From NCBI GenBank assembly GCA_948144175.1, contig CANXME010002317.1, positions 1,674,001-1,738,000 on the forward strand: a DNA stretch of 64,000 bases, read 5' to 3'. This document shows, piece after piece, positions 18,137-62,000 of this stretch. Made by a program: the position numbers and the translations under genes. The stretch is from Closterium sp. NIES-65 (taxonomy: Eukaryota; Streptophyta; Zygnematophyceae; Desmidiales; Closteriaceae). Positions within the stretch are counted from its first letter, which is position 1; every line of letters begins with the position of its first letter. The notes under the pieces are model-generated. The model searched no databases. It had not been told where the DNA came from and saw nothing but the letters and a program-made list of their open reading frames with translations.

Positions 18137-18290
18137 CCCTGTATGCATCCTAAACCAAAGCATGTGATGAGGCGATTTTTGACTCAAAAAAGCCCCTGTA
18201 TGTTTTTGAGACGTCTCAAAAACAGCCTCGCTTCACGTGGCTACTAAAAAAAACCCCTGTATGCATCATAAATCAAAACATGATCGCCTT
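18137..18290. repeat. Duplication pair around palindrome GTTTTTGAGACGTCTCAAAAAC
   Basis: A perfect 22-bp palindrome with ACGT core lies at 18202-18223. To its left (from 18137) and right (from about 18253) are two similar copies of an ACCCCTGTATGCATC segment followed by related A-rich sequence. Part of an extended left arm (GTGATGAGGCGATTTTTGA) is visible near 18164-18190. This is the leftmost example of the dispersed palindrome family. Confidence 0.8.
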
Positions 18291-18383
18291 TTCACTTCAC
18301 CAACCCCTCAAGAAAATCGTATGCAGTGACGTCCTACCGTGTTCCCCTTGGCGTCACCTTCAAAGCTCTGTCGAATCTGCTTA

Positions 18384-19226
18384 TCACGGGTACCACTGCC
18401 TTCCGCCTCCATACAGGCGACGGCTGTACATTTTGGGGGGAGACCAGGGGCGCCCGCCTCCATACAAGCGGCGGCTGTACATCTTGGGGGGAGACCAGGG
18501 GCGTCCGCTTCCCCACAGGCGGCGGCTGTACATCTTGGGGGGAGACCAGGGGCGCCCGCTTCCCCACATGCGGCGGCGCATCTTGGTCTTTCCGCCCGCC
18601 AGTGCGTCGTCGCGGGAGGATTCAATCAGTTGTGGGCGCTCTAATTCGCGCAGCTGCACCCCGTCGCTGCTGTACGGCGCGCGAGGCTCCATCGCGCGCA
18701 GCACGTTTCCACTAGTTTCGAAGTCGGCGCAGTAACTGTAGCTTTCCGCATAGGCATATTCATTAGACCAGTACGGGGTAGTCCCGTCGAAGCCACCCCC
18801 GTTACACTGCGGGTAACCAGATTCACCACAGTCGTAATTCCCCGGACATTGCAGCTGTTTGATTCCCTCCTCGATATAATGCGTGTCGGCCTGTTGGCCG
18901 CTGCTGTACTCGTAACCGGAGAGGTCTATATCGCAGCAACGCGCGAGCCTGTTCGCTTTCCACTTGCAATCATGGCAGTAAAGCGCGCCAGCCTGCACGA
19001 GCGCGCACTTAGTCGAGTCGCCCGGGGAATAGCCGCCGCCGTAGAGACACGTGCGACGCCACCCGTTTCCATTGCAGAAGCTCAGGACCGCAACGGCCGC
19101 GTTTGCCTCGTTTGCGCAGTCCAAGTCGTACGCGCGCACCGGGGCGAGCGGGAGGAGAAGGCAGAAGAGGAGGAGATTCGCGAGGAGTTTTCGGAGAAGA
19201 ACGGGAGGGGTGTTTCCGGCCGCCAT
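18384..19226 (-). CDS. Secreted Cys-rich protein with Arg-Arg-flanked C-terminal repeats (copy 1)
   Basis: This intact 280-codon frame stops with TGA. Residues 1-33 form a signal peptide: a basic start, a Leu-rich core and LAPVRA before the mature YDLDC. Residues 34 to about 190 are a Cys-rich domain (DLDC, SFCNGNGWRRTC, YCHDC, ARCCDI, LQCPGNYDCG, PQCNGGGF, YCADF), which I do not recognise. From about residue 218 come three 17-residue repeats plus a shortened last one, each RR followed by MWGSGRPWSPPKMYS, LWGSGRPWSPPKMYS or LYGGGRPWSPPKMYS. The regular dibasic spacing resembles precursors cleaved by Kex2-like proteases into several near-identical peptides; this is inference. It could instead be a coding minisatellite on an extracellular or wall protein. 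A paralogue lies at 24290. Confidence 0.75.
   Translation of the reverse strand: MAAGNTPPVLLRKLLANLLLFCLLLPLAPVRAYDLDCANEANAAVAVLSFCNGNGWRRTCLYGGGYSPGDSTKCALVQAGALYCHDCKWKANRLARCCDIDLSGYEYSSGQQADTHYIEEGIKQLQCPGNYDCGESGYPQCNGGGFDGTTPYWSNEYAYAESYSYCADFETSGNVLRAMEPRAPYSSDGVQLRELERPQLIESSRDDALAGGKTKMRRRMWGSGRPWSPPKMYSRRLWGSGRPWSPPKMYSRRLYGGGRPWSPPKMYSRRLYGGGRQWYP
18404..18595 (-). repeat. 51-bp coding tandem repeat of the secreted protein
   Basis: There are three and a half copies of a 51-bp unit encoding the RR-bounded repeat. Copies are nearly identical at DNA level, implying recent expansion or gene conversion. A matching array of two and a half copies is at 24305-24440. Confidence 0.85.
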
Positions 19227-20187
19227 CGGCGCTGGTGATGCGTCGTAGTAGTAGCTGATGACTACTTTTAAAGAGAATGAATTACGAAATAACTAAATTT
19301 GCCTTTATGCTACTCGCTTAAAAATAGGACCTCGAAATTCGCCAACGAAAGGCGAAGAGTTGCGCAGAGACGCTGAATACAGCTGACTGAATCGTGCCTA
19401 GAAAAACAGGCTACTGGATAGCTGTGACAGTAAGCAAGCTTGGAGTTGGCGAGGCACAGCCTGGGACGAACTAAAATACTAGACGATGAGTTGAGGCAAG
19501 GGAGAGGGGGGAACCCTAGGAGAGAGCGGGGAAGGGTGCGCAGGGAGGGATGCAGTCAAGCCGCAGGCGCTGAATCCCGCTGATGTGTATGCTGCGTGAG
19601 TTGTCAGGACAGCAATGCATGGAGTTCAAATCGCGCCGAGTCACCAATTTCGCTGTGCGACGCCACGCACGCATTTCGCGAGTTTCTTCCGAGTCTTGCA
19701 GTGCCCTCGATTTTTGCAAGCTTGTGTCGTGCGTTTCTTACCGAGTTGTTCAGGGCTATGGGCTAACAAGACTGGCCCTCGATGCTGCTCTGTTACGGCA
19801 TGAATGGCTGGCGAATCTCCGCTGGCAGCATCGCAGCTGATGTTTGACTTGATTGGGAGAAAACAACCCTTACAACCAGATTCGCTATTCAGCGAGTGTC
19901 AGGTAAACCCTCACATGAATCAATTACAACAGCTTCCTCCCTCCATTTGATAAGGTGGTTCACTATTTTTTAGAAAGGAAGTTAACATAGGCCCATGATA
20001 CCCTAAAGTGCACAGGAAATTTCTGTGTTGATACACCAAATATATCAGGTAGAAAACGTATATATTATGTACACCTAAGATGGGTTCTCTCATTATGTTC
20101 ATACTCCCAAATGATAGGGAACACTACCTAGGGAAGTCCATGGTAATGAAATTGAACCATGGTAAAGTACACTTGTCCATTTACCAC
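19227..20187. other. Intergenic region between secreted gene copy 1 and ArsS-like fragment 1
   Basis: No gene is seen. The part at about 19590-19800 is clearly related to 25485-25700, including a GTTGTCAGGACAGCAATGC stretch and a TTTCGCGAGTTTCTTCCGAG stretch. It therefore belongs to the duplicated segment and probably holds the 5' flank of the secreted gene. Confidence 0.6.
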
Positions 20188-20797
20188 CTACACCACCGCG
20201 CCGGTACAGCTGGAACCACTGCCAGCTGTACACCTGCATCGAGACATGAAGAGATGAAAAAGAAGCGCGAAGGAATTAACGGGCAAGCGATGTCGACTCC
20301 AGAGGTGCACAGAAGCGGCCAAATAACTTTCCGACGCAACGCAAAGTGGCAGTTCGGGTTCACTAAACAAGTACATTCAGGAAGAATAATCAACTTGCAG
20401 AATTGCGTTCCGTTGCTTATTTGTCAGTCCACAAGCTCCTCCCAATTGACTCACAACACACGCTATACTACCTATACATGCTCACTACCACAAATACCGT
20501 AAGAGCTACCAATTACATAGAACCAGCAACTCACCTGCAGCAGTGCACTGTCGTGGCTATGGGGGGCAATCAACAAGCTCGTCCAGTGATTCACAACACA
20601 CGCCACAGATAAGAATCACAAAGTATGTAGAATGAGTAACTCACCCGAAGCAGTGTGCCGCTGTGGCTATGGGGCGATCCACAAGCTCCTCCAGTGATTG
20701 GATGTCAAAGACAGAGCGGGGAGGAGGGGGAGGTGGAGGGGCGAGGGGAGAGTTTGTTGCAGTGGATGGCTTGGGGGGAAGGCTGAGGTTGAGTTGC

Positions 20798-21675
20798 TGG
20801 TTGAAGTCACAGTCGAAGAGAGCGCCCTGCCTGGAATGTGTGGGGAAGAAGGGAAAAAACAAGAGGGGAAGGGAGAGGCGAGAGTTTGTTGCAGCGGAAG
20901 AGGGAGAGGAAGGCCGAGGTTGAGCTGCTGGTTGAAATCACAGTCAAAGAGGGCGCCTTGCCTGCAAGAGGGGAGGGGAGGAGATCAGAGAAGAGGGACG
21001 GAGAAACGAAAGAAGGGGCGAAGAAGAGGAAGGCTGAGGGCGAGCTACTGGTTGAAATCACAGTCGAAGAGGGCGCCTTGCCTGCAATGGGCATATCGAG
21101 TAGGAGGCCCGGGGGTTTGGAGAGAGGGGGGGACACAGAATAAGAATGGAGCGCAGAAAGGGGAGAGTTGGGTGCACTAGATGGTTTGGGAGGAAGGCCG
21201 AGGGCGAGCTGTTGGTTGAAATCACAGTCAAAGAGAGCACCCTGCCTGTAGTGGGTGAGGAGAAAGGGGGACACAGAACAAGAATGGAGAGCAGAAAGGG
21301 GAGCGTTGGGTGGGTTGGGAGGAAGGGCGAGGGCGAGCTGCTGATTGAAGTCACAGTCGACAAGAGCGCCTTGAAAGGAATGTGTGGGGGAAGAAGAGGA
21401 CACAGAATAAGTATGGAGAGAGGAGAGAAGAGAGTCGGGTGCAGCAAATGGCTTGGGGGGAAGGCTGAGGGCGAGCTGCTGGTTGAAGTCACAGTCGAAG
21501 GGAGCGCCTTGCCTGCAGTGGGTTGGATGAGCAGAGGAGAGAAGGAAAGACAGAAAAAGAATGGAGTGCAGAGAAGGGAGAGTCGATTGCAGTAGTTAGT
21601 GGGGGTGAGAGGCCGACTTTTGAGTCACCTCGGGCGAGCTGCTGGTTGAGTCACAGTTGAAGAGAGTGCCTTGTC
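20798..21675 (-). repeat. Array of seven [10 protein letters not shown] exon copies (copy 1 locus)
   Basis: Seven copies of an exon start, each reading on the minus strand roughly GCAGGCAAGG, GCGCCCTCTTC, then GACTGTGATTTCAACC, recur every 110-165 bp near 20798, 20923, 21044, 21208, 21340, 21476 and 21640. Each keeps an AG acceptor. Intervening sequence is A/G-rich and also duplicated. Confidence 0.8.
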
Positions 21676-22599
21676 TGCGGTGTGAGGGGGAAGAAGGGGA
21701 AACGAGAGGAGAGGGGCGCCCTGCCCGAATTACACCAGATTCTTCCTCCCCCTTCCCCCTCCCCTCCTCCTCTCTCCTCCCCCTCCTTCACTCCTCTCCC
21801 ACACACACACACACGAGTCAATGCTGACCAAATTTCGACACATCACGCTGCCCACTGCTGCTGGGTTGACCACCGATTTAGCCTAACAATTACTACCCCA
21901 CATATGCATTACCCCCTTCAACCCCCCCCCCCCCCCCCCCGCGCCCTCCTCCCCACGCACCAGTCAATGTTGATCAGGTTTGTGCACATCACGTTGCCCA
22001 CTGCTGCCGGGTTGAACGCAGAGATCTGCGTGGGTGGAATGGGGTGGAATGGGGTGGGTGGGGCGACATATTATGCTTGAATCACCAGTCAGGTTTGGAC
22101 TCATCACGTTGCCCACTGCTGCTGGGTTGAAAGCAGAGACCTTTGTAGGTGAGAAGAGGCAGCAGAGAGGGAGTGGGTGGGAGAGAATGCAGCAGAGGGG
22201 CACACTTGAGGAACAATAATCTTTACCCACTGCTGCTCGGTTGAACGCAGGTACCTGCGTGGTTGAAAGGAGAGGCAGGCAGGGTAATGGAGGAGGCAAC
22301 AGAGGGAGTGGGATAGATGTGTGTATGTGTGCATGCATGTGACTGCTATGCTTACTGCATGCCAGGATGCACGCATGCCACCAGCATAGAACCACTAGAT
22401 GTACTCCATACAAGCATCTCAACTAAAAGGCTTACCAGCAGCTGCATGCATTCCTCGAGTCGGCTCTGCCTATGCAGAAGCGATGCGAACACAGTTGTAC
22501 TCCATATAAGCAGCTCAATACAAGGTTCACCAGCGGCTGCATGTAGTCCTCGACCTGGCCCTGCCTATGCAGAAACGATGCGAATCTGTGAACGGATGC

Positions 22600-23220
22600 A
22601 TCAGCGACAAACACGCATGGAAAGACGCATACGCAAAACATGCTTGAAACAAGCAAGCATAACCTTGGCATGAAACGGAACCAGTAGCAGTGCCTTCCCA
22701 ACATGAAACCCACGTTAAATTGTAGCATTGACATAGGCTAACTATGTAAGCATACCACCCAAATCTCAAGTGTACACTTCCACTAAGACCCCCCAGTCCT
22801 TCTTGTTGAAGGTCCACCCAACCCAACCGTTAATGGACATTCCGATTATTGGTGGTCATGCCTCCAGCTTATTGGGTGACCAAACAGACACATAGGACTT
22901 CCATCCATCGGGCCAACCAGTAGTGTTGGAGGGAATTCCAAATCTGGTCAACCCAATCTCTCCAACGACGTATTCCCTTGCTCTCTCCAAACAATCACCG
23001 TTCAGTTTCCTTCAACCCCACTTGTCAGGAACGTTGGTGACGGTTTGAGGTTCAGTGACCCCCTCTTTTGAGCAACAGGCTCTGTTCGCCTCAGCTCGCT
23101 GGACACCTCTGCACACCTCTGCACACCACTGCGTGCGCACCTCTGCTGACCCCTGCTCACTCCTGTTCATCTCTCCTCTCCTCTACTCACCTCTGTTCAC
23201 CACTTTCAACTCACAACTCG
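22600..23220. other. Non-coding stretch within the duplicated ArsS-like fragment
   Basis: I see no convincing exon. Near 23030 there is a worn match to the LFTITN exon. The rest appears intronic. Confidence 0.5.
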
Positions 23221-24026
23221 CCTCTTGACAGTTATGTTGGTGATGGTGAACAGGCTGCGATATTCTCTGTTCACCGCTCACCGTACACCACTCACCACCC
23301 GCCACCCATCATGCCTCTCACAATAACCCACTTTTGACAGGCATGTTAGTGATAGTGAACAGGATGTTGAGAAACATGCTCTACTCACCTCTGTTCACCT
23401 CTGTCAACCACTCACTACCGCTCATCACTCACCGGGCGTGTTGGTGATGGTGAACAGCCCGACAGGCTTTAGTTTTTCGTTTTCTCAACAAAGAGAGAGG
23501 CTATTGGTGAAGCCTCTGATGATAGTGAAACGAAGAGAACTTTAGTGAAAGCTTTTGTGATAGTGAGGAGGCTGTTGAAACAATATGCACCGAGTACCAC
23601 CCAACCCAGCCCTGTTCACCCTTGCGCACCACTCACTACCGGCCACTCACCTCTTGACAGGCATGTTAGGTGATGGTCAAGAGGGTGCTGAACGATATGA
23701 TCTGCTCACAACCCAACAGAACCCTCTTGACCCCCCCTTCACCACAGTTTCCCCCTGTTCACCACTCACCACCACCACTCACCTCTTGACAGGCATGTTT
23801 GGTGATGGTCAAGAGGGTGCTGAACGATATGCCCTGCCCACGAACCAACACACAACTCTTCATTTCCGTTAACCCCTGTTACTCGCTGCTCACCCCTTTC
23901 CACTTTTTTCAACAATAATAGAAAGTCATGTATAATCTGCATTCAGGTACTGCATGTATCCCTCACACCCCCACTCTCCCCTACACTCCGTTGAGCTGAG
24001 ATCACCAGGAAACCGAAACAGACTTC

Positions 24027-24197
24027 TGAGGTGCCTCAAAAACCAAAAACGGACTTCTGAGGTGCCTCAAGAACCATAAACCGACTTCTGAGGTGCCTCA
24101 AAAACCATAAGCAGACTTCTGAGGTGCCAAAAAAAACTTCAACAGACTTCTTAGGCACCTAAAAAAACCTTAACAGACTTCTTAGGCACCTAAAAAA
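24027..24197. repeat. Six-copy tandem array of a degenerate palindrome unit (period about 31 bp)
   Basis: The units start ACTTCTGAGGTGCCTCAAAA, grading into ACTTCTTAGGCACCTAAAAA. Each contains a near-palindrome GAGGTGCCTC or TTAGGCACCTAA followed by an A-run and CAG or CGG. The core resembles the dispersed TTTTGAG-NNNN-CTCAAAA palindromes, here organised as a tandem array just 3' of secreted gene copy 2. Confidence 0.8.
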
Positions 24198-24289
24198 TAA
24201 TGAAATGCTCAACTAAGCATGTGCCTCAGAACTAAACAACCTCCATCAATCTAACCTCCTTCCCACGGACAGGGCGGCCACGGGTACCA

Positions 24290-25051
24290 CTACGGGTACC
24301 ACTGCCTCCCGCTTCCCCACAGGCGGCGGCTGTACATTTTTGGGGGAGACCAAGGGCGCCCACTCCCCCACAGGCGGCGGCTATACATCTTCGGGGGGGG
24401 CCAGGGGCGCCCGCTTCCCCATAGGCGGCGGCTCATCTTGGCCTTTCCGCCCGCCAGTGCGCCGTCGCCGAGGGGAGCAATCGGGCGCGGCGGTTCTGCG
24501 CGGATCTCGTCCGCCTCAGCGGCGGATTCCTCCCACGGACGCTCTAGTTCGCGCAGCTTCACTCCGCCGCTGCTGTCCCCGCGGGGCTCGAGCCCGCGCA
24601 GTATCGTTCCCCTGAATTCGGGGCAAAATTCATAACCTTGCACATAGGAATATTTATCTAACCCGAACCACGAATTAATACCGTCGAACCCACCCCCGTT
24701 ACACTGCGGGTAACCAGATGTAGCACAGCCCGTATTCCCTGGGCACTGTAGCAGACCGATTCCCCATTCAATGTCATACGTGTTGGCCTGTTGGCCGGCG
24801 CTTAGCTCGTAACCGGAATCGGAAACTCGGAGGTCTACGATATCGCAGCAACGCTCGAGTTTGTGCGCATTCCCTTGGCAGTCCTCGCAGTAAAGCGCAC
24901 CGGATTGAACGAGCGTGCACTCTCCGGAACCGTCCGTGGCATAACCGCCGCCGTAGAGACACGTGCGACGCCACCCGTTGCCGTTACAGAAGCTCAGCAC
25001 GGCAACGGACTCGCTGGCCTCGTTTGCGCAGTCCAAGTCGAACGCGCGCAC
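24290..25051 (-). CDS. Secreted Cys-rich protein with Arg-Arg-flanked repeats (copy 2, start damaged)
   Basis: This paralogue of 18384-19226 has the same Cys-rich domain (FDLDCANEA, SFCNGNGWRRTCLYGGGY, YCEDC, PQCNGGGF). It ends with two full repeats, RR-LWGSGRPWPPPKMYS and RR-LWGSGRPWSPPKMYS, and the shortened RR-LWGSGRQWYP before TAG. The stop sits where copy 1 has TGA. The homologous ATG (about 25136) is followed by a one-base deletion relative to copy 1 in the signal-peptide region, so the signal peptide and mature domain are in different frames. Either this copy is a pseudogene, an error is present, or a hidden splice restores phase. The coordinates give only the open part. Confidence 0.65.
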   Translation of the reverse strand: MRAFDLDCANEASESVAVLSFCNGNGWRRTCLYGGGYATDGSGECTLVQSGALYCEDCQGNAHKLERCCDIVDLRVSDSGYELSAGQQANTYDIEWGIGLLQCPGNTGCATSGYPQCNGGGFDGINSWFGLDKYSYVQGYEFCPEFRGTILRGLEPRGDSSGGVKLRELERPWEESAAEADEIRAEPPRPIAPLGDGALAGGKAKMSRRLWGSGRPWPPPKMYSRRLWGSGRPWSPPKMYSRRLWGSGRQWYP

Positions 25052-25139
25052 CGGAGCGAGTGGGAGCAGAAGGCAGGAGAGAAGGAGAGTCGCGAGGAGT
25101 GTTCGTAGAAGCGCTTAGGAGTTTTTCCGTCCGCCATCG

Positions 25140-25997
25140 GCGCTGGGTGATGCGTCCGACGAGTCGTCGGTACTACTAGTAGTACCTATCGAATGCGACT
25201 AAGCATAAAAAGGAACGTAGCAGAAGTTCTGCTTACTCGCTATAACAACAGACGTTGAGATTTCGAAACTAGAGGCGAAGAGTTGCAGAAATTGGTAAAT
25301 ATAGCTGACGAATTCGTGCTTTACGGAAAAGGCTACCTGGATAGCTGTGAGAGTAAACAAGCTGGGATTGATGAGACACAACAGAAGTGGAGCGAAGTAA
25401 ATGTGGAAGGCGATGTCTGGGAAGGGCGCGGGGGGGTGGGAGGTAAGATCCAGTCGTCAGCCAAAGCTGTGCGAGGAATGTGGGTGAGTTGTCAGGACAG
25501 CAATGCACGGAATTTGAGTCGCGCCGAGTCACAAAGCTCGTCGTGCGACGCCACGCAATCATTTCGCGAGTTTCTTCCGAGTCATGCTATGCCCTTACTT
25601 TTCGCAAACACTTTTCGCGCGTTTCTTCCCAAGTTGTTCAGAAGTTCAGGGCTATGCGGTCCAGCAGACTGCCCCTGAATGCTGCTCTGTTACGGCGGGA
25701 ATGGCTGGCGAAGAAGTCACTGCAGTTTGCGAATAAAAGTTTTTACCTAGCGATATCACAGCAGATGGTGACAGGGAGAAAAACATGATGCAGTGAACAC
25801 TCTTACAAACGGATTCGCTAATCACAACTATTTGCTTCCACCCATTGAGAGTAAGAAGCACTAGGATGATGCTTTCCTAACAGGAGACCAAGTGCCCCAT
25901 TCTGAGAATTCTGAGAGAGAAAATCTAGAGACACGACACGACTAGATAGAAACATACTGAAGTTCAACCATTGTAGGATACACTATCCCATCTGCTG
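25140..25997. other. Intergenic region between secreted gene copy 2 and the ArsS-like gene
   Basis: No gene is recognisable. It is the duplicate of 19230-20187 and carries the same conserved blocks, diverged by substitutions and small indels. The spacing of the secreted stop to the ArsS stop is similar in both copies (about 1.8 and 1.7 kb). Confidence 0.6.
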
Positions 25998-28900
25998 CTA
26001 TACAACTGCGCCAGTACAGCTGGAACCGCTGCCAGCTGTACATCTGCAAAGAGGCATGAAGGAATAAAGCAAAAAGAAGCAGTCAATGATTCATGGAGTC
26101 GATTAAGAGTGGCCTTTACAGTAGACTCCAAAGATACAGAAAACCAGCAGCTTGCTTGTCGAAGTATTGTGTTTCAGTGGTTATGAGTCGGCTGGTCAAC
26201 AAGTTCCTTTGATTCACAACACACGCTATATCTGCTCACTACAGATACGCAGCACAAAAAAAAAAGAAAAAAAAAAGGTATAATCAGTACTCAGTAACTC
26301 ACCTGTAACAATGTGCTGCTGTGGCTATGGGGCGATCCACAAGCTCCTCCAGTGATTGGATGTCAAAGACAGAGCGAGGCGGGGGAGGAGGAGCAGAGGC
26401 AAGAGGGGAGAAGAGAAGCACGCTGCAACCACTCACAAGCTCACAGTTACAAGAGGCAAGACATCACCCACTCACCCGTAGCAATGTGCCGCTGTGGCTA
26501 TGGGGCGATCCACAAGCTCATCCATTGATTGGATGTCAAACACAGAGCGAGGTTAGAGGCGAGGAGGAAGTGGAGGAGAGGAGATGACCTGGGCAGAGGA
26601 ATGTTGATTGGACACATACGCACCCGTGACAGTGTGCTGCCGTGGCTATGGGGCGATCCACAAGCTCGTCCAGCGATTGGATGTCGAAGACAGAGCGGGG
26701 AGGGGGAGCATGCAGCACACACTAACATGGTCACACGCTCACAGTTACAAGAGACAGCACAAGAACCACTCACCCATAACAGTGCGCTGCTGTGGCTATG
26801 GGGCGATCCACAAGCTCATCCAGTGATTGGATCAGGGGGGTGGGAGATTGAGGAGAGGAGAGGAGAGAGGAACACAACCCACTCACCCGTAGCAGTGCGC
26901 TGCTGTGGCTATGGGGCGATCAACAAGCTCATCCAGTGATTGGACGTCGAAAACTGTGCGAGGCGGAGGAGGTGGAGGAGAGGCGAGGGGAGAGTTCGTT
27001 GCAGCGGATGGCTTAGGGGGAAGGCCAAGGGCGAGCTGCTGGTTGAAGTCACAGTCGAAGAGTGCGCCTTGCCTGCAGCGAGTGGGTGGTGGAGGAGAGA
27101 AGGGGAAACAAGAGGCGAGGCGAGGGGAGAGTTGGTTGCACTAGATGATTTGGGAGGAAGGCCGAGGGCGAGGGCGAGCTATTGGTTAAAGCCACAGCCG
27201 AAGAGGGCGCCCTGCCTGCGGTGTGAAGGAGCAGAGAGGAGCCTGGGAAATGAGGAAAGAGAAGGGGAGAAAAAGGAGGAAGGCTGAGGGCGAGCTGCTG
27301 GTTGAAGTCACAGTCGAAGAGAGCGCATTACCTGCGGTGGGTTGGGTGAGCAGAGGCGAGAAGGGGACACAGAATAAGATTGGAGAGCAGAGAGGGGACG
27401 GCTGGTTGCAGTGGGTGGTTCGAAGGGAAGGGCGAGGGCGAGCTGCTGGTTGAAATCACAGCCGAAGAGAGCGCCTTGCCTGTAAGAGGGAATTCCGAAT
27501 GGGAGGAGAGGAAGGAGAGAAGAGAGAAGAGAGTCGGTTGCAGTGGGTGGTTTGGGGGGAAGGCTGAGGGCGAGCTGCTGGTTGAAGCCACAGTCGAAGA
27601 GAGCGCCTTGCCTGTGGTGGGTTGGGTGAGCAGAGGCGAGAGAAGGGAAGCAGAGAAAAAAGGAGAACAGGGAAGGGAGAGCAGGGAAGGCACCGCTGGT
27701 TGCATTGGATGGTTTGCAGGGAACGCGGAGGGCGAGCTGCTGGTTGAAATCACAGAGTGCCTTGCCCGCAGTGTGGGAGGGGAGAATGGAAAACAAGAGG
27801 AGAGGGCGCCTTGCCTGCATCTTTTGAGGAGCCTCAAAAGTCGTTGTTCAGGCGCCTCACAAGAGGAGAGGGCGCCCTGCCTGCAAAACCCTCCCAACCA
27901 CCACCCCCCCCCCCCGCCTCCTTTTCTACCCCCTCCCCCTCTCCTCCCATCACCCCTTGTTGTCCCTTCTCTCCCACAGACGCACCAGTCAATGTTGATC
28001 AGGTTTGTGCACATCATGTTGCTCATTGCTGCAGGGTTGAACGCACACACCAGTCACATGGACACAGTAACCCCCCTTCTGCCCCTCTCCCACGCACCAG
28101 TCAATGTTGATCAGGTTTCGGCGCATCACGTTGCCCACTGCTGCCGGGTTGAATGCACATACTAGTCACATGCATGCGTGCATCAACCCCCCTTCTCTCC
28201 TCCCTCTTCCCCCCTCCACCTCTCCTCTCCCACGCACCAGTCAATGTTGATCAGGTTTCTGCACATCACATTGCCCACTGCTGCTGGGTTGAAGGCAGAG
28301 ATCTGCGTGGGTGGGGTGGAATGGGGTGGAAAGTGGTGGGGGGGCGACATGTGATGTTGAATCACCAGTGAGGTTTCGACACATCAAATTGCCCACTGCT
28401 GGTGGGTTGAAGGAAGCGGTCTGCGTGGGTGAGGGGGGAGGCAGGGAGGAAGAATGGGAGAGGAATGGTTGGGTTGGGTCAACGTTTGCCACTACATTAG
28501 CGGATGAAGTTCCGGCACATCACATCACGTTGCCTACTGCCGGTGGGTTGAGGGCGGTGGCCTGCATAGGTGACGTGTCATCTCACTCTCCTGACGGCAC
28601 CAGCATATAGCCATAACGTGTACACCATACAAGCAGCTCCACTACAAGACTTACCAGCAGCAGCATGTAGTCCTCGAATCGACCCTGCCTATGCAGAAGC
28701 AATGCGAACACAATTGCACTCCATATAAGCAACTCCTATACAAGGCTTACCAGCAGCTGCATGTAGTCCTCGAGTTGGCCCTGGCTATGCAGAAACGAAG
28801 CGAATCTGTGGTAGGATGTACAGACACAAACGGAGGGGCAGAAAGACATGCGTCGATTTTTGAGTCGACTCAAAAATCGACTCATCACACGCGGTAGGAT

Positions 28901-31900
28901 GTACGGGCACAAATGGAGGGGCAGAGAGACATGCACAATTTAGTTTCGAGGCGTCTCAAAACTGCTCATCCGTGGCAGGACGTACATACAAGAATGGAGG
29001 CACGGAGAGACATGCACAAAGAAATGCATGGAATGATGAACGCAGCAGCTGTGCCTGGCTGGTGACTTTTGAGTCGACTCAAAAATGAACAAAGAAATGC
29101 ATGGAATGATGAAAGCAGCAGCTGTGCCTGGCTGGTGAATGCATGGAATGATGAAAGCAGCAGCTGTGCCTGGCTGGTGAATTTTGAGTCGACTCAAAAA
29201 TGAACAAAGAAATGCATGGAATGATGAAAGCAGCAGCTGTGCCTGGCTGGTGAATGCATGGAATGATGAAAGCAGCAGCTGTGCCTGGCTGGTGACTTTT
29301 GAGTCGACTCAAAAATGAACAAAGAAATGCATGGAATGATGAAAGCAGCAGCTGTGCCTGGCTGGTGAATGCATGGAATGATGAAAGCAGCAGCTGTGCC
29401 TGGCTGGTGAATGCATGGAATGATGAAAGCAGCAGCTGTGCCTGGCTGGTGAATGCATGGAATGATGAACGCAGCAGCTGTGCCTGGCTGGTGAATGCAT
29501 GGAATGATGAAAGCAGCAGCTGTGCCTGGCTGGTGAATGCATGGAATGATGAAAGCAGCAGCTGTGCCTGGCTGGTGAATGCATGGAATGATGAACGCAG
29601 CAGCTGTGCCTGGCTGGTGAATGCATGGAATGATGAAAGCAGCAGCTGTGCCTGGCTGGTGAACGCATGGAATGATGAAAGCAGCAGCTGTGCCTGGCTG
29701 GTGAATGCATGGAATGATGAACGCAGCAGCTGTGCCTGGCTGGTGAATGCATGGAATGATGAACGCAGCAGCTGTGCCTGGCTGGTGAATGCATGGAATG
29801 ATGAACGCAGCAGCTGTGCCTGGCTGGTGAATGCATGGAATGATGAACGCAGCAGCTGTGCCTGGCTGGTGAATGCATGGAATGATGAAAGCAGCAGCTG
29901 TGCCTGGCTGGTGAATGCATGGAATGATGAAAGCAGCAGCTGTGCCTGGCTGGTGAATGCATGGAATGATGAAAGCAGCAGCTGTGCCTGGCTGGTGAAT
30001 GCATGGAATGATGAAAGCAGCAGCTGTGCCTGGCTGGTGAATGCATGGAATGATGAAAGCAGCAGCTGTGCCTGGCTGGTGAATGCATGGAATGATGAAA
30101 GCAGCAGCTGTGCCTGGCTGGTGAATGCATGGAATGATGAAAGCAGCAGCTGTGCCTGGCTGGTGAATGCATGGAATGATGAAAGCAGCAGCTGTGCCTG
30201 GCTGGTGAATGCATGGAATGATGAAAGCAGCAGCTGTGCCTGGCTGGTGAAGGCATGTTGGTGAAGCAGCAGCTGTGCCTGGCTGGTGAAGGAATGTTGG
30301 TGAAGCAACAGCTGTGCCTGCCCAACCCTCACCTCTTGACAGGCACCTCTGCTCAACCCTGCTCACCTCTGTCAACCACTCACCACCAAACACCTCTCTT
30401 CATCTCTGTCCGATAATCACCTCGTGACAGGCATGTTGGTGACGGCGAACAGGCTGTTGAATGATATGCTATGCTCACCACCCCCCACCACACCTCTCTG
30501 TACCTCCGTTCAACCCTGCTCACCACCCACACCACACCTCTATGTACCCCTGTTCACCCCTGCTCACCACCCACACCACACCTCTATGTACCCCTGTTCA
30601 CCCCTGCTCACCACGCACCACCCAACATCCACTCAACACTCACCTCTTGACAGGCATGTTGGTGATGGTTAAAAGGCTGTTGAACGATACTCTCTGTTCA
30701 CCACCCATCAAACCTCTCGTTACCTCTCTTCACCTCAGTTCACCCCCATTCACACCTGCTCACCCCTCTTTACCACTCACCTCTTGACAGGCATGTTAGT
30801 GAACAGGCTGTTGAACGATATGCACTGATTATCACCTCCCCTCCAGCTCTGTTCATCCCTGTTCACCCCTGTTCACCGCTCACTTCACTGCCTACCGACC
30901 ACTCACCTCTTGACAGGCATGTTGGTGATGGTGAAGAGGCTGTTCAGCGATATGCACTGAATACCACCCTCCGCTCCAGCTCTGTTCACCCCTGTTCAAC
31001 CCTGTTCACCCCTGTCCACCCCTGTTCACCCCTGTTCACCCCTGTTCATCCCTGTTCACCACTGCTCACCACTCATTACCAACTCGACCTACCACGCACC
31101 TCTTGACAGGCATGTTGGTGATGGTGAAAAGGCTGTTGAACGATATGCCATAGCATGACATCAGCTCGCTCTGAGAGGTATGGATGGAGTGGTATTGAGG
31201 GGTGGGGAGGGTTATGGAGAGGTATGGGACAGTGGAGGTGTTAGGAAAGGGGGAAAGGAGACTGCTGGTTGAACGATATGCTATAGCATGGCATCAACTC
31301 GCTCAGAGAAGGGTATGGGGAGGTATGGAGGGGCTTGGAAGGGTAAGGGTTCCCAGCAGCAGCACATAAATCCCATCTCATCTCATCCCACCCTACCCCA
31401 CCCCACCCCATCCCGTCCCATCCCATCCCAACCCATCCCAGCCCATCCCATCCCATCCCACCCCACCCCACCCCACCCCACCGCACCTTACCACACCCCT
31501 TCTCGTCTCGTCTCACCTTGTATGCTTCCTCCAGCTTGGCTTGAGCAGGGGGGAGGAACGGCCCAACCGGGTTGTACACCAGGTCTAGCACCAAACCCGA
31601 GCCTTCCTTGCCGTACCTGAAATGCAGGTTCGGCAAGGGAGGATGCTAGGGGAAGGATCAAGGGTCAACGGAAGGAAAAAACAGTCTCCTTCCAAAATAA
31701 TAGAATCTAGACAAAATCAAGTCGAATTGGTTGTTTGAGTCAACTAAAAAAAATTAGACAGGATTAAGAAGAACTTATAGGATTAGACAGTATCAATCCT
31801 TTACTTGAAAGACCCTTTGCAGATGCCACTGTACATCCCATTTGCACTCGGTTCCCCCCCAACAGCATCGCATCCCATCGCATTCCACCGCACTCGGCCC

Positions 31901-34900: not shown

Positions 34901-37740
34901 GAAAAACTTTGGCCACCTGAACAGATACCTGAGAAGTCACTCGCATTGTAACCTAGGCTTCCACCCGCAAGGAACGATCAAACCTGACTAGTTGATTGCT
35001 CAGGTTCCTCCCCGCATTAATGAAACCACCTGAGGCTAAGCCCCTCTGTTGTTCTCACCTGAACTCAGGGTTAAGCTCAGGTGCCCCCCCTGTGAGGTCA
35101 ACACAGCGCACACTTGGACAGGATGACACCAGCTGCACCTGCAAGGGGATTGGATTGAAAAATGGGGGAGGGAAGGGGGAGCGGAAGGGGAAAAAAAATG
35201 GGGAGAGAGGGGGCGTGGGACACGTTTCCTGAAAGACCTGCCTGCAGGATGTTTCCATAAAGGGCACACTTGGGCAACCTGACACCAGCTGCACCTGCAG
35301 GGGATTGGATTGAAAAGTGGGGGAGGGAATGGGGGGGCGGAAGGGGGCGAGGAGTGGAGAGGGGAAGGAAGGCGTGCTAGGGTTGAGGCTTCAAACTTAA
35401 GAATTGGGGTTTGAAGCTTGAAGCTTGGGCTTCAGGGAAAATCGGGCAGTGGGTGGGTCGCAGCTTAGCGTGTATAGGTAGGGCTAGCCGCATTGTGAAT
35501 CGAGGTAGGGCTAGCCGCATTGTGAATGCTCTCACCACTCTCTCTGCCGTTCTATGATCCATCGTCTCGGTTCACAGAGAGGAGGAGTCCACGTGGCAGT
35601 GCTGGAATGCCTGGTTGCAATACAGGCTTCAAGCTTGGGGCTTAGGGTTTGGGGCTTGGGGGTAAGGCTTCGGGCTTCACTGCTGGCTGGGATGGGTGCT
35701 CTCACCACTCTCTCTGCTGTTCTATGATCCATCATCTCGGTTCTGAGAGGGGAGGAGAGCAGACAGAGCCCATAGCAGTGCTGGCTTGGCTTGTTGACGG
35801 AACAGGGAGATCACTCACCACCCTCTCTGCCGTTCTGTGATCCATCATCTCGGTTCTGAGCGGGGAGGAGTCCACGTGGCAGTGCTGGCACGCCTGGTTG
35901 GTTGCAGAACAGTACAGGCTAGCTGGTAGGGCTTCAATGCTGGTTGGGATAGGGAGGCCACTCACCACCCTCTCTGCCGTTCTGTGCTCCATCATTTCGG
36001 TTCTCAGAGGGGAGGAGTGCACGTGGCAGTGCTGCTGGCTTGTTGAAAGAGGAGAGACAGTGAGCAAGCACTGGCCTATACGGTGTTCCAGCACTCACCA
36101 CTCTCTCTGCCGTTCTGTGATCCATCATCTTTGTTCTCAGAGGGGAGGAGTCCACGTGGCAGTGCCGGCTCGCCTGGTTGGTTGCAGTACAGTACAGGCC
36201 TATGTTGACCTAATCAAGCTTTCAGCTGGGGGTTTGGGGCTTGCAGGGTTTGGGGCTTGCAGGGTCTGGGGCTTGCAGGGTCTGGGGATAGAGAAAGATC
36301 ACTCACCACTCTCTCTGCTGTTCTGTGCTCCATCATCTCCATTCTCAGAGGGGAGGAGTCCACGTGGCAGTGCTGGCACGCCTGGTTGCAGTACAAGCAA
36401 GAAGCTGGGGGCTTACGGTTTGATAATTGCAACGCATTCCAGCACTCACCACCCTCTCTGCTGTTCTGTGCTCCATCATCTCGGTTCTGAGAGGGGAGGA
36501 GTCCACGTGGCAGTGCTGACACGCCTGGTTGCAGTAGAGCCCGATGTTGACTTGAACAGTCTCAATGACTCGACGGGTGAAGGGCAGGGGCGTGCCCTGG
36601 TGAAAGGGGGAAGGGGCGGAGGGACATAGTAGAGGTATTTAGCACGCCTGGTTGCAATACAGGCCGATGTTGACTTTAACAGTCTCAATGACACGCCGGG
36701 CGAATGGCAGGGGGGTGCCCTAATGGAGGGGGGAATGAGAAAAATAGGGAGCCAGGTGAAGGGGTGGGCACGCCTGGTTGCTGTACAGCCCTAAGTTGAC
36801 CGGAACATTTTCATGACTCGCAGGGTGAATGGCAGGGGGGTGCCCTAGTGGAGGGGGAAGTGAGAGGGGTTGTACTGTGTCGATGACACCGCGGGTGAAT
36901 GGGAGGGGGTTGTGTGTGTGGGAGGAGATTAGGGAGAAAGAGGTGACGGGGTGGAGGGGAGCAGAGCGGAGAGGAGAGTGGGAGAGGAGGGAAAAGAGGG
37001 GAGAGAAGGGGGAAAGAGGTGCAAGTGGGTGTCCACGAACGGATGTTGAGGCCCCTCAAATGTCGCAACATACATGAAAGCAGAGGAGGGGAGGGATGCG
37101 GCTGGGTTCAGGGTTTGGGGTTTATAGGGAATGGGCGTGGGAGTGGGAGTGGGGAGTGGAAGTGGGTGTGGGAGTGGGAGTGGGGAGTGGAAGTGGGTGT
37201 GGGAGTGGGAGTGGGGAGTGGAAGTGGGTGTGGGAGTGGGAGTGAGATTCGGACGGAGGGATGATAGGTGCAGGATCTCTCAGGGCTGCACTCACATGAT
37301 CGGCCATGTGCACTCACATGATCGGCCATGTGGCGAAGAAACAAGGGAACAAGCCCCTTGATTGCAGACAAGGGGAGGGAAGAAGCAGGAGTGGGAGTGG
37401 GAGTGGGAATGGGGTTGGGAGTGGGAGTGGGAGTGGGAATGGGAGTGGGAGTGGAGTGGGGAGTGGGAGTAAGAGTGGGGAGTGGGAGTGGGAATGGGAG
37501 TGGGAGGGGAAGTGGGAGTGGGACGGATGATGGTTGCAACAATTCAACTCTGAAATCTGCACTCACATGATCTGCGATGTGGCGAAGAAACGACGGCTGA
37601 GATGCAAGCACCTCCTCGGCAGACCGAGCCTCCACTTTAGGCTCGGACACACACCGAACCAGCCTCGCCGCCCTGGCTCTGCCATTCCGCGAGCCAGTCC
37701 TCCGAACGTCCTTCGCAAAAGAGAGGAGCGAGTGGAGCAG
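25998..37740 (-). CDS. ArsS-like radical SAM/Cys-rich (DUF3641) gene with multiplied exons
   Basis: This multi-exon minus-strand gene fits the arsenosugar-biosynthesis radical SAM family ArsS (known role: SAM-dependent modification of methylated arsenic; role here inferred). In gene order: N-terminal exon ending FLRHIADH (ends 37567); [20 protein letters not shown] to [10 protein letters not shown], with the CX3CX2C iron-sulfur motif (about 36450-36580); [15 protein letters not shown] (35059-35138); [18 protein letters not shown] to FEPGQE (33923-34007); [14 protein letters not shown] to [10 protein letters not shown] (33274-33357, 28 codons); [17 protein letters not shown] (32276 and others); [16 protein letters not shown] (31517-31616); [83 protein letters not shown] (25998-26042). 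Most exons occur in several tandem copies. The start codon is not resolved; sequence upstream of the first exon is rich in Arg and Ser. Confidence 0.8.
26316..26950 (-). repeat. Five tandem copies of the [15 protein letters not shown] exon
   Basis: Copies lie near 26316, 26488, 26637, 26792 and 26906. Each reads on the minus strand to ATAGCCACAGC, CAC-TG(C/T), then a GTGAGT donor. The exon ends AAHCFG or AAHCYG and joins in phase to the last exon. Two equivalents are in copy 1 (about 20550 and 20654). Confidence 0.8.
27036..27880 (-). repeat. Six or more copies of the [10 protein letters not shown] exon (copy 2 locus)
   Basis: Copies occur near 27036, 27177, 27294, 27449, 27579 and 27738, plus two short AGGGCGCC-type starts at about 27800 and 27868 that flank a palindrome. 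Frames vary and some introns are retained in phase, so long artefactual ORFs appear on both strands. Confidence 0.8.
27821..27840. repeat. Palindrome CTTTTGAGG-AG-CCTCAAAAG
   Basis: Two 9-bp inverted arms have a 2-base centre. It lies between two copies of a 26-bp exon-start segment (CAAGAGGAGAGGGCGCC, CTGCCTGCA) at about 27795 and 27860. A second partial core, CAGGCGCCTCAC, follows at 27849-27860. Confidence 0.85.
27985..28560 (-). repeat. Five copies of the [14 protein letters not shown] exon
   Basis: Copies near 27990, 28110, 28238, 28373 and 28507 each encode FNPAAVGN or close variants, then a Cys-containing segment. Several end GACTGGTGCGTGG, where GTGCGT is a plausible donor. Variants include [14 protein letters not shown]. 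Confidence 0.8.
28650..28806 (-). repeat. Two copies of the FLHRQGQVEDYMQPLV exon
   Basis: Both copies (about 28650-28705 and 28752-28806) keep the GGC-CAG-GT(C/T)-GAG-GAC core and TACATGCAG end. Equivalent copies in the first locus are at about 22440 and 22530. Confidence 0.75.
28853..28880. repeat. 28-bp perfect palindrome centred on TCGA
   Basis: The sequence is symmetric about 28866/28867, with arms TCGATTTTTGAGTC and GACTCAAAAATCGA, followed by a further CTCATCAC. A GTAGGATGTACAGACACAAA-type unit of about 60 bp precedes it and recurs after it (28891) and again (28975) after another palindrome at 28942-28963. Confidence 0.9.
28942..28963. repeat. Imperfect palindrome AGTTTCGAGGCGTCTCAAAACT
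   Basis: Two mismatched positions. It separates the second and third copies of the GTAGGATGTAC/GCAGGACGTAC unit. Confidence 0.75.
29023..30262. repeat. 42-bp intronic minisatellite with embedded palindromes
   Basis: There are roughly 28 copies of a 42-bp unit (ATGCATGGAATGATGAAAGC and AGCAGCTGTGCCTGGCTGGT GA). Because 42 is divisible by three, four long frames run through it; none is a gene. In the left part a higher-order unit of exactly 115 bp starts with TTTTGAGTCGACTCAAAA at 29067, 29182 and 29297. The array lies in an intron of the ArsS-like gene. Confidence 0.92.
30420..31150 (-). repeat. Array of [11 protein letters not shown] exon copies
   Basis: Copies near 30425, 30648, 30785, 30905 and 31100 each read [16 protein letters not shown] or close variants, with a GTGAGT- or GTGCGT-type donor after AAGAG. 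A shortened copy is near 30338. Between them are CTGTTCACCCCTG-type short repeats with no other coding content. Confidence 0.78.
31370..31492. repeat. CCCAT/CCCAC low-complexity tract
   Basis: Pentamer-like repeats in the intron immediately 3' (gene sense) of the [11 protein letters not shown] exon. Confidence 0.7.
31517..31616 (-). CDS. ArsS-like exon [16 protein letters not shown]
   Basis: This 100-bp exon is bounded by CAG acceptor and GTGAGA donor. It encodes [20 protein letters not shown] and then [13 protein letters not shown], one of the most conserved ArsS-family segments as I recall the family. I see only one copy. Confidence 0.8.
31620..32270. other. Intron sequence without recognisable features
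   Basis: A/C-rich sequence with GCACTGCA-type short repeats. No exon, RNA gene or transposon end is visible. Confidence 0.5.
32555..32902. repeat. 22-bp minisatellite GAATATGCATGGGTGAAGGAGA
   Basis: About sixteen nearly identical 22-bp copies. It is intronic, located between two copies of the [10 protein letters not shown] exon (about 32439 and 32905). Open frames over it are artefacts of the repeat. Confidence 0.92.
33062..33645 (-). repeat. Tandem copies of the DLAEFL...SADNVNKQ exon
   Basis: One full 84-bp copy lies at 33274-33357. Two 3'-part copies (SADYVNKQ and SADNVNKQ with GTATGC donors) are near 33068 and 33172. Two 5'-part copies ([14 protein letters not shown] and a variant) are near 33490 and 33600. 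The duplications therefore cut inside the exon, not only in introns. Confidence 0.78.
33788..34007 (-). repeat. Two copies of the [10 protein letters not shown] exon
   Basis: The full exon 33923-34007 encodes [18 protein letters not shown] then [11 protein letters not shown] second copy of its 3' part, [19 protein letters not shown], is at about 33788-33848. Both have GTGAGG donors. Confidence 0.78.
34182..34888. mobile_element. hAT-like non-autonomous DNA transposon (MITE), 707 bp
   Basis: Terminal inverted repeats of 18 bp (CTATGTTCGGAAAGACGC and its complement with one mismatch) are flanked by a perfect 8-bp target duplication CCGCTTCA (34174-34181 and 34889-34896). Subterminal regions hold clustered GGACGC/GCGTCC words able to fold. 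No transposase is present. An 8-bp duplication fits hAT or P superfamilies; TIR sequence alone does not decide. It lies in an intron of the ArsS-like gene. Confidence 0.88.
35059..35138 (-). CDS. ArsS-like exon [15 protein letters not shown]
   Basis: An 80-bp exon with CAG acceptor and GTGAGA donor encoding [18 protein letters not shown] and APELNPEF. A partial second copy of its 5' half ([16 protein letters not shown]) lies at about 35230-35300. Confidence 0.8.
35525..36810 (-). repeat. Seven or more copies of the radical SAM CX3CX2C exon
   Basis: Copies of the exon carrying [20 protein letters not shown] and the downstream HRTAERV plus GTGAGT donor lie near 35525, 35710, 35815, 35965, 36105, 36315 and 36450. 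Three further 5'-end copies ([15 protein letters not shown]) lie near 36530, 36650 and 36780. The copies at 36315 and 36450 keep all three cysteines. The 35525 copy reads CNQAFQHC, losing the middle cysteine. The 35815 and 36105 copies carry a two-codon insertion (GTTGGT on the plus strand) in the motif. Only one exon would be used for a functional enzyme. Confidence 0.82.
37130..37525. repeat. GTGGGAGTGGGA-type purine-rich minisatellites
   Basis: Two tracts (about 37130-37250 and 37385-37525) of GGGAGT/GGAAGT units flank two short copies of the FLRHMADH exon end (near 37295 and 37318). Confidence 0.8.
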
Positions 37741-37855
37741 GAAAGGGGGAAGAACGATCGAGTCGGTTTCTTGAATCGACTCAAAAATCGACTCATCTCA
37801 AAGAGAGGAGCGAGTGGAGCAGGAAACGGGGAAGAACGATCGAGTCGGTTTCTTC
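37715..37855. repeat. Direct duplication (about 53 bp) separated by a palindrome-family sequence
   Basis: The segment starting AGAGAGGAGCGAGTGGAGCA and ending GAGTCGGTTTCTT occurs twice (about 37719 and 37801). Between the copies is TTGAATCGACTCAA followed by AAATCGACTCATCTC, the right arm of the palindrome consensus. Confidence 0.85.
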
Positions 37856-38648: not shown

Positions 38649-38720
38649 GTCGGTGTAGTTTAGTGGTTAGGATCCCACGTTGTGGCCGTGGAGACCTGGG
38701 CTCGAATCCCAGCACCGACA
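38649..38720 (+). tRNA. tRNA-His (GTG anticodon)
   Basis: A 72-nt cloverleaf. Acceptor stem GTCGGTG pairs with CACCGAC, the anticodon loop holds GTG within CGTTGTGGCC, the T arm contains GGTTCGA-like GGCTCGAATCC, and the discriminator is A. Internal promoter boxes are intact and there is no intron. A T-run at about 38740-38747 is the Pol III terminator. It matches the plant tRNA-His pattern. The G at position -1 would be added after transcription. Confidence 0.93.
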
Positions 38721-38983
38721 TTCTTTCTCTCGGGCTTTCTTTTTTTTCTTCCATGCCAAGCAGGTTCTCCTTTGGACCTGTTTCCCTTACCGTATTTTTA
38801 AACCTGAAAATGACAACTCCATTCAATGCTGGGCTTACCGGAGGCTAGTATAGCTCCTCAGAATACTAGGAAATACTTCTTCATACAATAAAGCAGAAAT
38901 AGAAAATGTAGACATTGAATGCGCAGATCAGAAAGTGCTTCATACTATTTGATATCTCAAAAAGAGAAACCTAAAAACGGATC

Positions 38984-41401: not shown

Positions 41402-42218
41402 GAACGAGCTTCTGTGGTTCTAGTGAATATGAACTAGTTTCTGTCCGTGGAAAGAACGCAGGAAAGAACGCCAATTCAGGAAGGTCTAACAAGCTACGAA
41501 GGCTTCCTGACTCTGAGGCTTTACCCTACCAAAGCTCTGGCTTTGTCCCCAAAGGAAGAAAGAATGAAATGAACATAGCGAGAGGTGAATGGGACTGGAG
41601 GAGGAGGTGACGGCTTCGACTAATCCTTGAAACTAGAACTGGGGTCTTCCCAATCTTGAAACTCGGGACCATCGTTCCTGTTACCACATTGTCACGCGAG
41701 ATGTTCGGCACTGCTCATCCTGTGTTCGACATGCTCGCGAACAGAACTTGTAATGAACAGTCAGAATGTTACGGTGTGGAATCTCTGACTGGCTGTGAGC
41801 AGTGTGACATCGTTTCCAGTTTCGCGATATTTGCATCGCCAGAATTTCCTACAGATTGCCAACGTTCCTCAAGAATCGAAACATCGCGAATCTGGAGTTT
41901 TCTTCAAATGTACCGCGCCTCATAGCGTATTTTCAGTTCGAAATGGAAGAGTGGGTGGGTGGAAAAGAGCGGGAACAGCTGACTTTCTAGACCGTATCGC
42001 CTTTCACGCGGCGTGTCACTTGAGTTGAGTGTTACGAATGCTTGCATTCGAACGCAAACTGACAATCGAGACGAGGAAGTATTAAGTAGGCACGAGGTAT
42101 GCTGGAATAAGCTCGAGATAAAGTGCATTCGTCCTTGTCAGGCCAGCGTCGCACCGTTGCCGCATTGACAGCCGCAGTCGCAGTCGCATACAATGTCGAA
42201 TTCGCGGTCGCAACTGCG
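41402..42218. other. Intergenic region between the LRR gene and element C
   Basis: This is the upstream region of the LRR gene (minus) and, before element C inserted, of the GCKR-like gene (plus). At 42150-42223 it is rich in GTCGCA/TCGCGG words. No gene or TATA box can be assigned with confidence. Confidence 0.5.
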
Positions 42219-42223
42219 GTCGC

Positions 42224-42777: not shown

Positions 42778-42825
42778 ATCTCCCCTGTGGTTTGCTTCTG
42801 CCAACCTTAGATCTGAAAATCTTAA

Positions 42826-43962: not shown

Positions 43963-43985
43963 CTATTTCAGCCCATAGAGCGCTT

Positions 43986-47672: not shown

Positions 47673-47680
47673 TATAACCA

Positions 47681-47692
47681 GCTCTGATACCA
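47681..47692 (-). promoter_or_regulatory. Primer binding site of element C
   Basis: Minus-strand TGGTATCAGAGC, complementary to initiator tRNA-Met, two bases from the LTR. Confidence 0.92.
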
Positions 47693-47694
47693 GC

Positions 47695-48248: not shown

Positions 48249-48285
48249 GTCGCACGAGCTCCCTCTCACAGAGCGACCGAATGAG

Positions 48286-62000
<13,715 letters not shown>

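Follow-up and report, generated by a model that had tools for sequence, protein, structure and literature searches.

A family of short palindromes of the form TTTTGAG-N4-CTCAAAA is dispersed but clumped in the DNA of the desmid Closterium, and many of its members lie between two copies of a host segment of variable length. The family had been noticed in a sequence-only reading of a single stretch; the observation is confirmed there, and it holds outside that stretch too. Judged from their sequences, the palindromes are one dispersed family with the consensus ATGAGNCGAYTTTTGAGNCG/NCTCAAAARTCGNCTCAT, and comparison among sites supports their insertion with duplication of host DNA, the conservation of their arms and the symmetry of their core. 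We tentatively favor, with slightly less than even confidence, a process in which a short conserved sequence is added recurrently as a palindrome at staggered breaks in the Closterium nucleus, through the joining of two tails.

Source and Extent of the DNA

The window, by which we mean the whole 64-kb stretch that was analyzed, is nuclear DNA of Closterium, a desmid of the class Zygnematophyceae. It carries reading frames of Ty1/copia-type retroelements together with many local duplications. The proteins most identical to a leucine-rich-repeat protein encoded at 39467-41419 come from Closterium sp. Yama58-4 and NIES-54, with 83-84% identity across 52-63% of the query, and Closterium names are borne by every one of the top 44 among the 120 matches listed. 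A further 300 kb from the same genome brought the total read to 364 kb, and consisted of 10 kb, 10 kb from each of 20 contigs that were picked blind, and 90 kb picked beside family-rich loci. Positions with the prefix W, or with none, are those of the window; positions on C9 and C18 are counted from contig base 10001 and those on C3 from base 20001. Throughout, X denotes the duplicated host segment and E all of the DNA between its two copies.

The Palindrome Family

All 13 palindromes named in the sequence-only reading are present (13/13), centered where it had placed them, and their cores (TCGA, GCGC, ACGT, and AATT) are as it had described. Two are imperfect, with one mismatch at 51719 and two in the left arm at 61600, and two more (29190 and 29305) repeat 29075 as tandem copies of a 115-bp unit and are thus not independent. 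With up to three mismatches, the motif TTTTGAG-N4-CTCAAAA matches the window 33 times, compared with a mean of 2.95 (largest 7) in shuffled sequence, and a general palindrome scan of the window places the family among the strongest palindromes. Further window members were found at 27830, 28952, 37777, and 61177, along with weaker ones. The site at 61169 (member 61177, core GTCTGAG) was recovered through its flanking repeat; it came from a reverse survey in which local duplications were located first and the intervening DNA was examined after, and this survey recovered many of the same palindrome loci.

With up to two mismatches, the 364 kb contain 40 clusters, of which 37 are independent once the tandem copies W:29182, W:29297, and C18:126 are removed; site 61169 stands outside the 40. 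Members with the same X-E-X build are found on contigs C3, C9, and C18, which with the window's own makes four contigs. The blind set of 20 contigs (10 kb each) yielded eight clusters on three contigs, and 18 of the 22 pieces read, the window among them, have no cluster at all. The palindromes had been reported absent from the retroelements of the window, and this was borne out: the presumed retroelement frames, which cover 16.2 kb or 25% of the window, contain not one of its 20 independent clusters (p ~0.003). Two of these frames were tested with Pfam and the others judged by translation.

Searches for relatives of the family returned little. Rfam at gathering thresholds gave a tRNA gene at 38649-38720 as the sole match in the whole window and no known RNA for the family. 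In the 364 kb read, no longer relative of the palindromes was found, and no autonomous transposase-bearing relative sharing their termini was noticed among the half-sites; the family is therefore at most a candidate autonomous element. The translated arms gave five pattern matches in the 120 listed leucine-rich-repeat homologues, none of which was judged by eye to be an inserted palindrome. A literature search of titles and abstracts, which covered few subscription papers, found no such family described in Closterium, and no word starting with "palindrom" occurs in the body of the paper on Closterium genome size (PMC10407611).

Duplicated Host DNA at the Insertion Sites

It had been claimed that in nearly every case the same host segment adjoins the palindrome on both sides. 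This stands for 28866, 29075 with its two copies, 50793 (weakly), 51503, 51719, 56035, 57582, 61459, and 61600. It does not stand for 56109, which has no X pair of its own, nor in the strict sense for 18212, where the X copies lie 30-39 bp off and enclose two palindrome-like pieces.

The sites of the window, given without strand, differ in length and complexity. The complex site at 18134..18282 has X1 at 18134-18164 and X2 at 18252-18282, with a perfect 24-bp palindrome (18201-18224, core ACGT) within it. At 27793..27885, X1 (27793-27819) and X2 (27859-27885) are identical at 26 of 27 positions and enclose an imperfect E (27820-27858) with the core GAGC. The site at 28810..28934 consists of X1 28810-28851, E 28852-28892 containing a 30-bp perfect palindrome with the core TCGA, and X2 28893-28934; the same X is present a third time after a further insert E' (28939-28965, core GCGT), forming an X-E-X-E'-X chain at 28885..29019. 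Next to it, at 29012..29138, the palindrome 29066-29084 (TCGA) separates X1 29012-29065 from X2 29085-29138, and tandem copies of this unit, with palindromes at 29182 and 29297, lead into a 42-bp minisatellite. At 37718..37850, the copies X1 37718-37768 and X2 37800-37850 are identical at 50 of 51 positions around the insert 37769-37799.

Farther along the window, the site at 50761..50822 has X1 50761-50777, E 50778-50805, and X2 50806-50822; its E holds a 26-bp perfect palindrome and its X is weak (17 bp, two differences). Two longer sites follow, one at 51428..51581 (X1 51428-51486, E 51487-51519 with TCGA, X2 51520-51581) and one at 51640..51808 (X1 51640-51704, E 51705-51743, X2 51744-51808), the E of the latter sitting in a 50-bp palindrome at 51695-51744 with one mismatched pair. 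At 55963..56118, X1 55963-56024 and X2 56047-56110 flank the palindrome 56025-56046 (GCGC), with a second palindrome (core ACGT) at 56101-56118. The site at 57510..57674 reads X1 57510-57571, E 57572-57612 (GCGC), X2 57613-57674, and shortly after it, at ~57830-58960, comes a nearly unbroken TG repeat of ~1.1 kb. The last three are 61125..61238 (X1 61125-61160, E 61161-61201 with GTCTGAG, X2 61202-61238), 61412..61498 (X1 61412-61440, E 61441-61469 with AATT, X2 61470-61498, X copies identical at 29/29), and 61575..61641 (X1 61575-61594, E 61595-61621 with GCGC, X2 61622-61641).

Similarity of the flanks was scored by a strict rule, which calls for an alignment score of at least 12 between flanks lying no more than 30 bp to the left and 35 bp to the right of the palindrome and not of low complexity. 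By this rule 20 of the 40 clusters have the X-E-X build, compared with 2.2% of 1500 random positions and with none of 31 unrelated palindromes of similar strength in the 364 kb. One of the strict matches, C9:27490, is doubtful, with 17 differences in X and a poor core. The rule is failed by 17 of the 37 independent clusters; seven sites with an obvious X (C9:6375, C18:63, C18:126, C18:4656, W:29182, W:29297, and W:37769) fail through the low-complexity or gap filter and were scored as misses. A loose measure, which accepts any flank alignment within 150 bp, separates poorly because local duplications abound in this genome: at a score of at least 20, it finds 16 of 24 sites and 27.5% of 400 random positions.

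The same association is seen when duplications are taken as the starting point. Among 100 non-overlapping duplications with a spacer of 8-75 bp in the 364 kb, 13 spacers are palindromic at p<=0.02 where ~2 are expected, and 11 of these 13 belong to the TTTTGAG family. The family label, loosely applied, falls on 23 of the 100 spacers, and 11 of these 23 are palindromic at this threshold compared with 2 of the 77 others.

The length of X ranges from 12 to 71 bp (12, 17, 20, 21, 24, 27, 29, 31, 34, 36, 40, 42 … 71 bp), with the 96-bp values at W:29182 and W:29297 excluded as due to tandem copies. The two copies are identical at W:61412 and C9:41955 and up to 24% diverged elsewhere (W:28944, 13/54), a divergence that speaks against an assembly artifact. 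In the table of inserts, no common sequence or end motif at the ends of X was evident by eye.

Paralogues Lacking the Insert

Exon-like units are locally repeated in this DNA, so that many sites have paralogues with which they can be compared. At eight loci, five clear and three partial, a local paralogue has one X and no palindrome. The clear cases are W:27820, W:61161, W:61595 (two paralogues), C9:12576 (two), and C9:14183 (two). In the window, the empty paralogue of the 27820-27858 site lies at 21560..21800 on the plus strand and has a family-like fragment, TTTTGAGTCACCTC, elsewhere in it at 21618; that of the 61161-61201 site (60861..61110, plus strand) has a single diverged X and no palindrome; and the two of the 61595-61621 site (61770..61990, plus strand) each have one X and no palindrome. 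In the partial cases (W:57572, C9:15031, and C9:42219), the paralogue aligns with just a portion of X and is likewise without E, as at 57276-57360, which corresponds to part of one X of the 57572-57612 site and has no palindrome. At W:28852 and C3:4763, the alignments stop at or before the site and are little informative. No paralogue with E and a single X was found in these alignments.

Empty paralogues could in principle mimic a gain if recombination between the two X copies had removed E and one X. Where two paralogues of a site are both empty, gain would be the simpler reading. Together with the contrast in X-E-X frequency between the family and unrelated palindromes, the empty paralogues argue for insertion with a long and variable target duplication, and against slippage at arbitrary hairpins. 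Of the two origins that the sequence-only reading had suggested, insertion through staggered cuts of variable length thus gains support from the eight loci with single-X paralogues and from the 12-71 bp range of X.

Arms, Core, and Junctions

Read inward from X by eye, the arm consensus is ATGAGNCGAYTTTTGAGNC, the inner part of which, TTTTGAGNC, is nearly always present, although the motif search itself favors this. The inserts are ~18-50 bp long. By eye, their center is fixed and their outer ends are ragged, with a starting point that varies independently on each side. In perfect members the two arms meet without a loop spacer. The youngest inserts, those with X copies identical or nearly so, differ from one another in both length and core. 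Two inserts, at C9:12576 and C9:15031, are made of several units of 23 or 24 bp inside one X pair. By eye, the insert at 37769-37799 looks like a single arm that stops at the center, because its left 8-9 bases nearly recur after X2; no further one-armed insert was found among the half-sites. Of all other CTCAAAA/TTTTGAG half-sites outside the clusters in the 364 kb, only 61169 is a further insert with an X within 40 bp, and no element body was noticed in the 60-80 bp of context beside the listed half-sites.

The self-complementarity of the core was scored against shuffled core halves, the core sequence having played no role in the motif search. The core is symmetric in 28 of the 37 independent sites (TCGA 15, GCGC 7, ACGT 3, and AATT 3), compared with a shuffled mean of 10.2. 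When the TCGA sites are left out, 13 of the remaining 22 cores are symmetric against a mean of 6.3 (p 0.001). The two innermost arm positions covary. The nine asymmetric cores may have decayed, may stem from tails that differed when joined, or may not belong to the family. It had been proposed that symmetry rather than sequence is kept; this describes the covarying inner positions well, but the sequence of the arms, TTTTGAG/CTCAAAA, is itself strongly conserved.

At the junctions, the end of X was read from whichever copy has that end away from E and was checked for in-register continuation of the arm consensus. The 44 junctions came from 22 of the 40 clusters; 25 fit the consensus and 19 did not, and 23 were used, W:56027 (where the X end has a second palindrome) and C18:19679 (whose consensus string came from test sites) being dropped. 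The X ends match the arm consensus over a mean run of 1.39 bases, compared with 0.50 for random genomic ends, and a run of at least three bases is found at 6 of the 23 junctions where 0.75 are expected (p ~0.0002; permutation among junctions, p 0.001). Microhomology at the ends of X is above chance in this exploratory comparison, for which the consensus was picked after the arms had been viewed.

Proposed Mechanism

The process that we tentatively favor would begin with a break whose cuts lie 12-71 nt apart, leaving two long 3' overhangs. Each 3' end would anneal in register, over a few bases, to one short template, either RNA or single-stranded DNA, whose 5' boundary is defined, and would be extended up to that boundary, gaining a tail that ends in ...TTTTGAGNCG(N). 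The two tails would then pair through their self-complementary tips (CG, or TCGA/GCGC/ACGT/AATT), and fill-in would produce X-tail-reverse tail-X. Symmetry of the core would be required because the tails must join by their tips, the variable X would be the staggered overhang filled in twice, and inserts of several units would come from repeat addition. The overall action would resemble telomerase-type healing of an internal break.

We infer the staggered cut, the template, and the annealing of two tails from what they would bring together: a fixed center with ragged ends, a covarying core, a long and variable duplication, microhomology, and repeat units. The insert at 37769-37799, with a single arm ending at the center, speaks for two-tail joining. 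Against it, one-armed inserts would be expected wherever one end alone was extended, and they are rare (perhaps 37769). A captured palindromic fragment would also yield ragged ends and microhomology; the template RNA, the reverse transcriptase, and the staggered-cutting enzyme are all hypothetical; and known telomerase inserts mostly show deletions, while duplication is common here.

Competing Explanations

The strongest rival, which we nevertheless consider rather unlikely, is the capture of ready-made short palindromic DNA (~46 bp, with trimmed ends) by end joining at staggered breaks, so that symmetry is a property of the captured molecule and differing cores reflect different source molecules. 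It accounts for ragged outer ends around a fixed center, the junction microhomology is also expected of microhomology-mediated end joining, and the inserts of several units could be captured multimers. However, to account for four symmetric cores, a whole set of perfect palindromes would have to be kept up independently of one another, the 364 kb showed no candidate source, and trimming would have to halt short of the center in nearly every insert. Retrotransposition and a transposase are weaker rivals, given an inner end that is fixed and outer ends that are not. A very short target-primed retrotransposition, driven by LINE or SINE machinery on both strands as in twin priming, with CTCAAAARTCGNCTCAT as the RNA 3' end and X as an ordinary target-site duplication, seems improbable to us. 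Target-primed reverse transcription fits duplications of variable length, such as those found here, and in-register microhomology at the priming end. Yet the half-sites outside the clusters have no X within 40 bp (61169 excepted) and no element body was noticed beside them; 5' truncation should end anywhere, whereas by eye the inner end is fixed at the center of the palindrome; and by eye there is neither an evident cleavage motif at the ends of X nor a constant tail.

More improbable still is a tiny non-autonomous DNA transposon consisting of two terminal inverted repeats without an interior, mobilized by a transposase of unknown kind through a widely staggered cut. A dispersed inverted-repeat family that is gained with a duplication and is absent in paralogues would suit it, but to our knowledge transposases give target duplications of fixed length, and the X lengths of 12-71 bp rule out a transposon of that type. 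The ends of a transposon should moreover be its constant part; here they are ragged by eye, and the youngest inserts vary in length and core. The second origin suggested in the sequence-only reading was hairpin-driven replication slippage or template switching, in which a pre-existing palindrome duplicates the DNA beside it. The palindromes do fold strongly (a 50-mer at -21.4 kcal/mol, z -9.9), and some outer arms match the inverted flanks (at least eight bases at 3 of 37 sites compared with 1.08 expected, overall p 0.016), although one of the three longest matches, W:56027, is merely a neighboring second palindrome, which leaves inverted copying of host flanks into the arms with weak support. 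None of the 31 unrelated palindromes is tightly flanked, however, palindromic spacers are almost only those of this family (11/13), and the empty paralogues are without the palindrome as well as without the second X. The control palindromes, the survey of 100 duplications, and the empty paralogues rule out slippage as a general cause; the explanation is largely refuted, and we give it very little credence. Least credible of all is chance, an assembly artifact, or the incidental presence of the motif in ordinary tandem repeats. Local duplications are plentiful in this genome (the 100 non-overlapping pairs with a short spacer across the 364 kb), and a single unit in tandem copies accounts for three of the window sites, but the counts exceed those of shuffles, random positions, and control palindromes, and the sites lie on four contigs with X copies ranging from identical to 24% diverged.

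Relation to Known Insertions

We found no known mobile element that matches the combination of insert and duplication, which also agrees with none of the standard transposition signatures tested. Non-LTR retrotransposons, including those inserted by twin priming, share with it variable duplications, synthesis primed by microhomology, and at times an inverted structure; unlike them, the Closterium inserts have no element body seen, no constant tail, a fixed inner end, and a very short length. In plants, the repair of nearby single-strand breaks is expected to give tandem duplications of tens of bp through fill-in of staggered ends, but no conserved palindrome is inserted where the copies meet. 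CRISPR spacer acquisition by Cas1-Cas2 also places a short DNA between duplicated tens of bp by means of widely staggered nicks. The likeness is one of outline only, as that system is prokaryotic with a fixed repeat and a variable spacer, whereas in Closterium it is the insert that is conserved and the duplicated stretch that varies.

Closest in several respects are the mammalian interstitial telomeric insertions at double-strand breaks. In the available text on these (PMC2246262), as in Closterium, a short conserved sequence is found at breaks, ancestral sites are empty (here paralogues and not orthologues), microhomology is in register at the break end (exploratory here), and the target is occasionally duplicated. 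According to the same text, the mammalian inserts are telomere units, whereas those of Closterium are palindromes, and deletions dominate there (50-52%, with duplications at 4.6-16%), in contrast to the 20 of 40 Closterium clusters flanked by a duplication of 12-71 bp (PMC2246262).

Short dispersed palindromes with nuclear copies are also described in another green alga, Volvox carteri, where the available account speaks of repeats of ~50 nt in organelle and nuclear DNA that are thought to be selfish (PMC2670323). Those repeats form hairpins with a loop of 3-5 nt and reach their highest abundance in organelle DNA, and that account, as far as it is available, does not mention a long flanking duplication (PMC2670323). 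The Closterium family, in comparison, mostly has no loop spacer and resides in the nuclear DNA of a streptophyte host. A possibly organellar stretch of the same assembly (L140, 41% GC, with a tRNA-Gly) has no family sites.

Neighboring Repeats and Implications

Several tandem arrays lie close to or include family sequence. At 29012-30264, part of X recurs as the 42-bp minisatellite, and the 115-bp higher-order unit bears the palindrome three times; a similar palindrome-bearing tandem array with a 63-bp unit is found at L146:1-210. Palindrome insertions may seed minisatellites. A 31-bp tandem array at 24017-24197, whose unit contains the half-palindrome GAGGTGCCTCAAAA, lies ~90-270 bp from the end of the reading frame 24290-25114. 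This frame is related to that at 18384-19292, the two sharing a 17-residue tandem repeat (RRLWGSGRPWSPPKMYS) without a Pfam match, and a palindrome site at 18204 is ~160 bp from the end of the latter. Paralogous arrays of exon-sized units with diverged spacers between them occupy 20735-22100 and 26473-28450; many of the local duplications there have spacers of 50-240 bp without palindromes.

A broader form of two-tail joining, which we regard as speculative and unlikely on present evidence, is that a telomerase-like but non-telomeric templated machine, extending both 3' ends from a single short RNA, heals widely staggered breaks genome-wide in Closterium and leaves a palindromic scar flanked by long direct repeats, making it a new self-spreading or repair-borne insertion that seeds minisatellites. 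Were two-tail joining true, it would be a templated joining of staggered breaks with a readable scar, and sequence alone would then suffice to map breaks in a streptophyte alga. It would also provide a concrete source of local tandem duplications and perhaps of minisatellite birth. Extensive copy-number variation is reported in the available text on the C. peracerosum-strigosum-littorale complex (PMC10407611). The family is a convenient marker for the comparison of strains whether or not the mechanism is correct.
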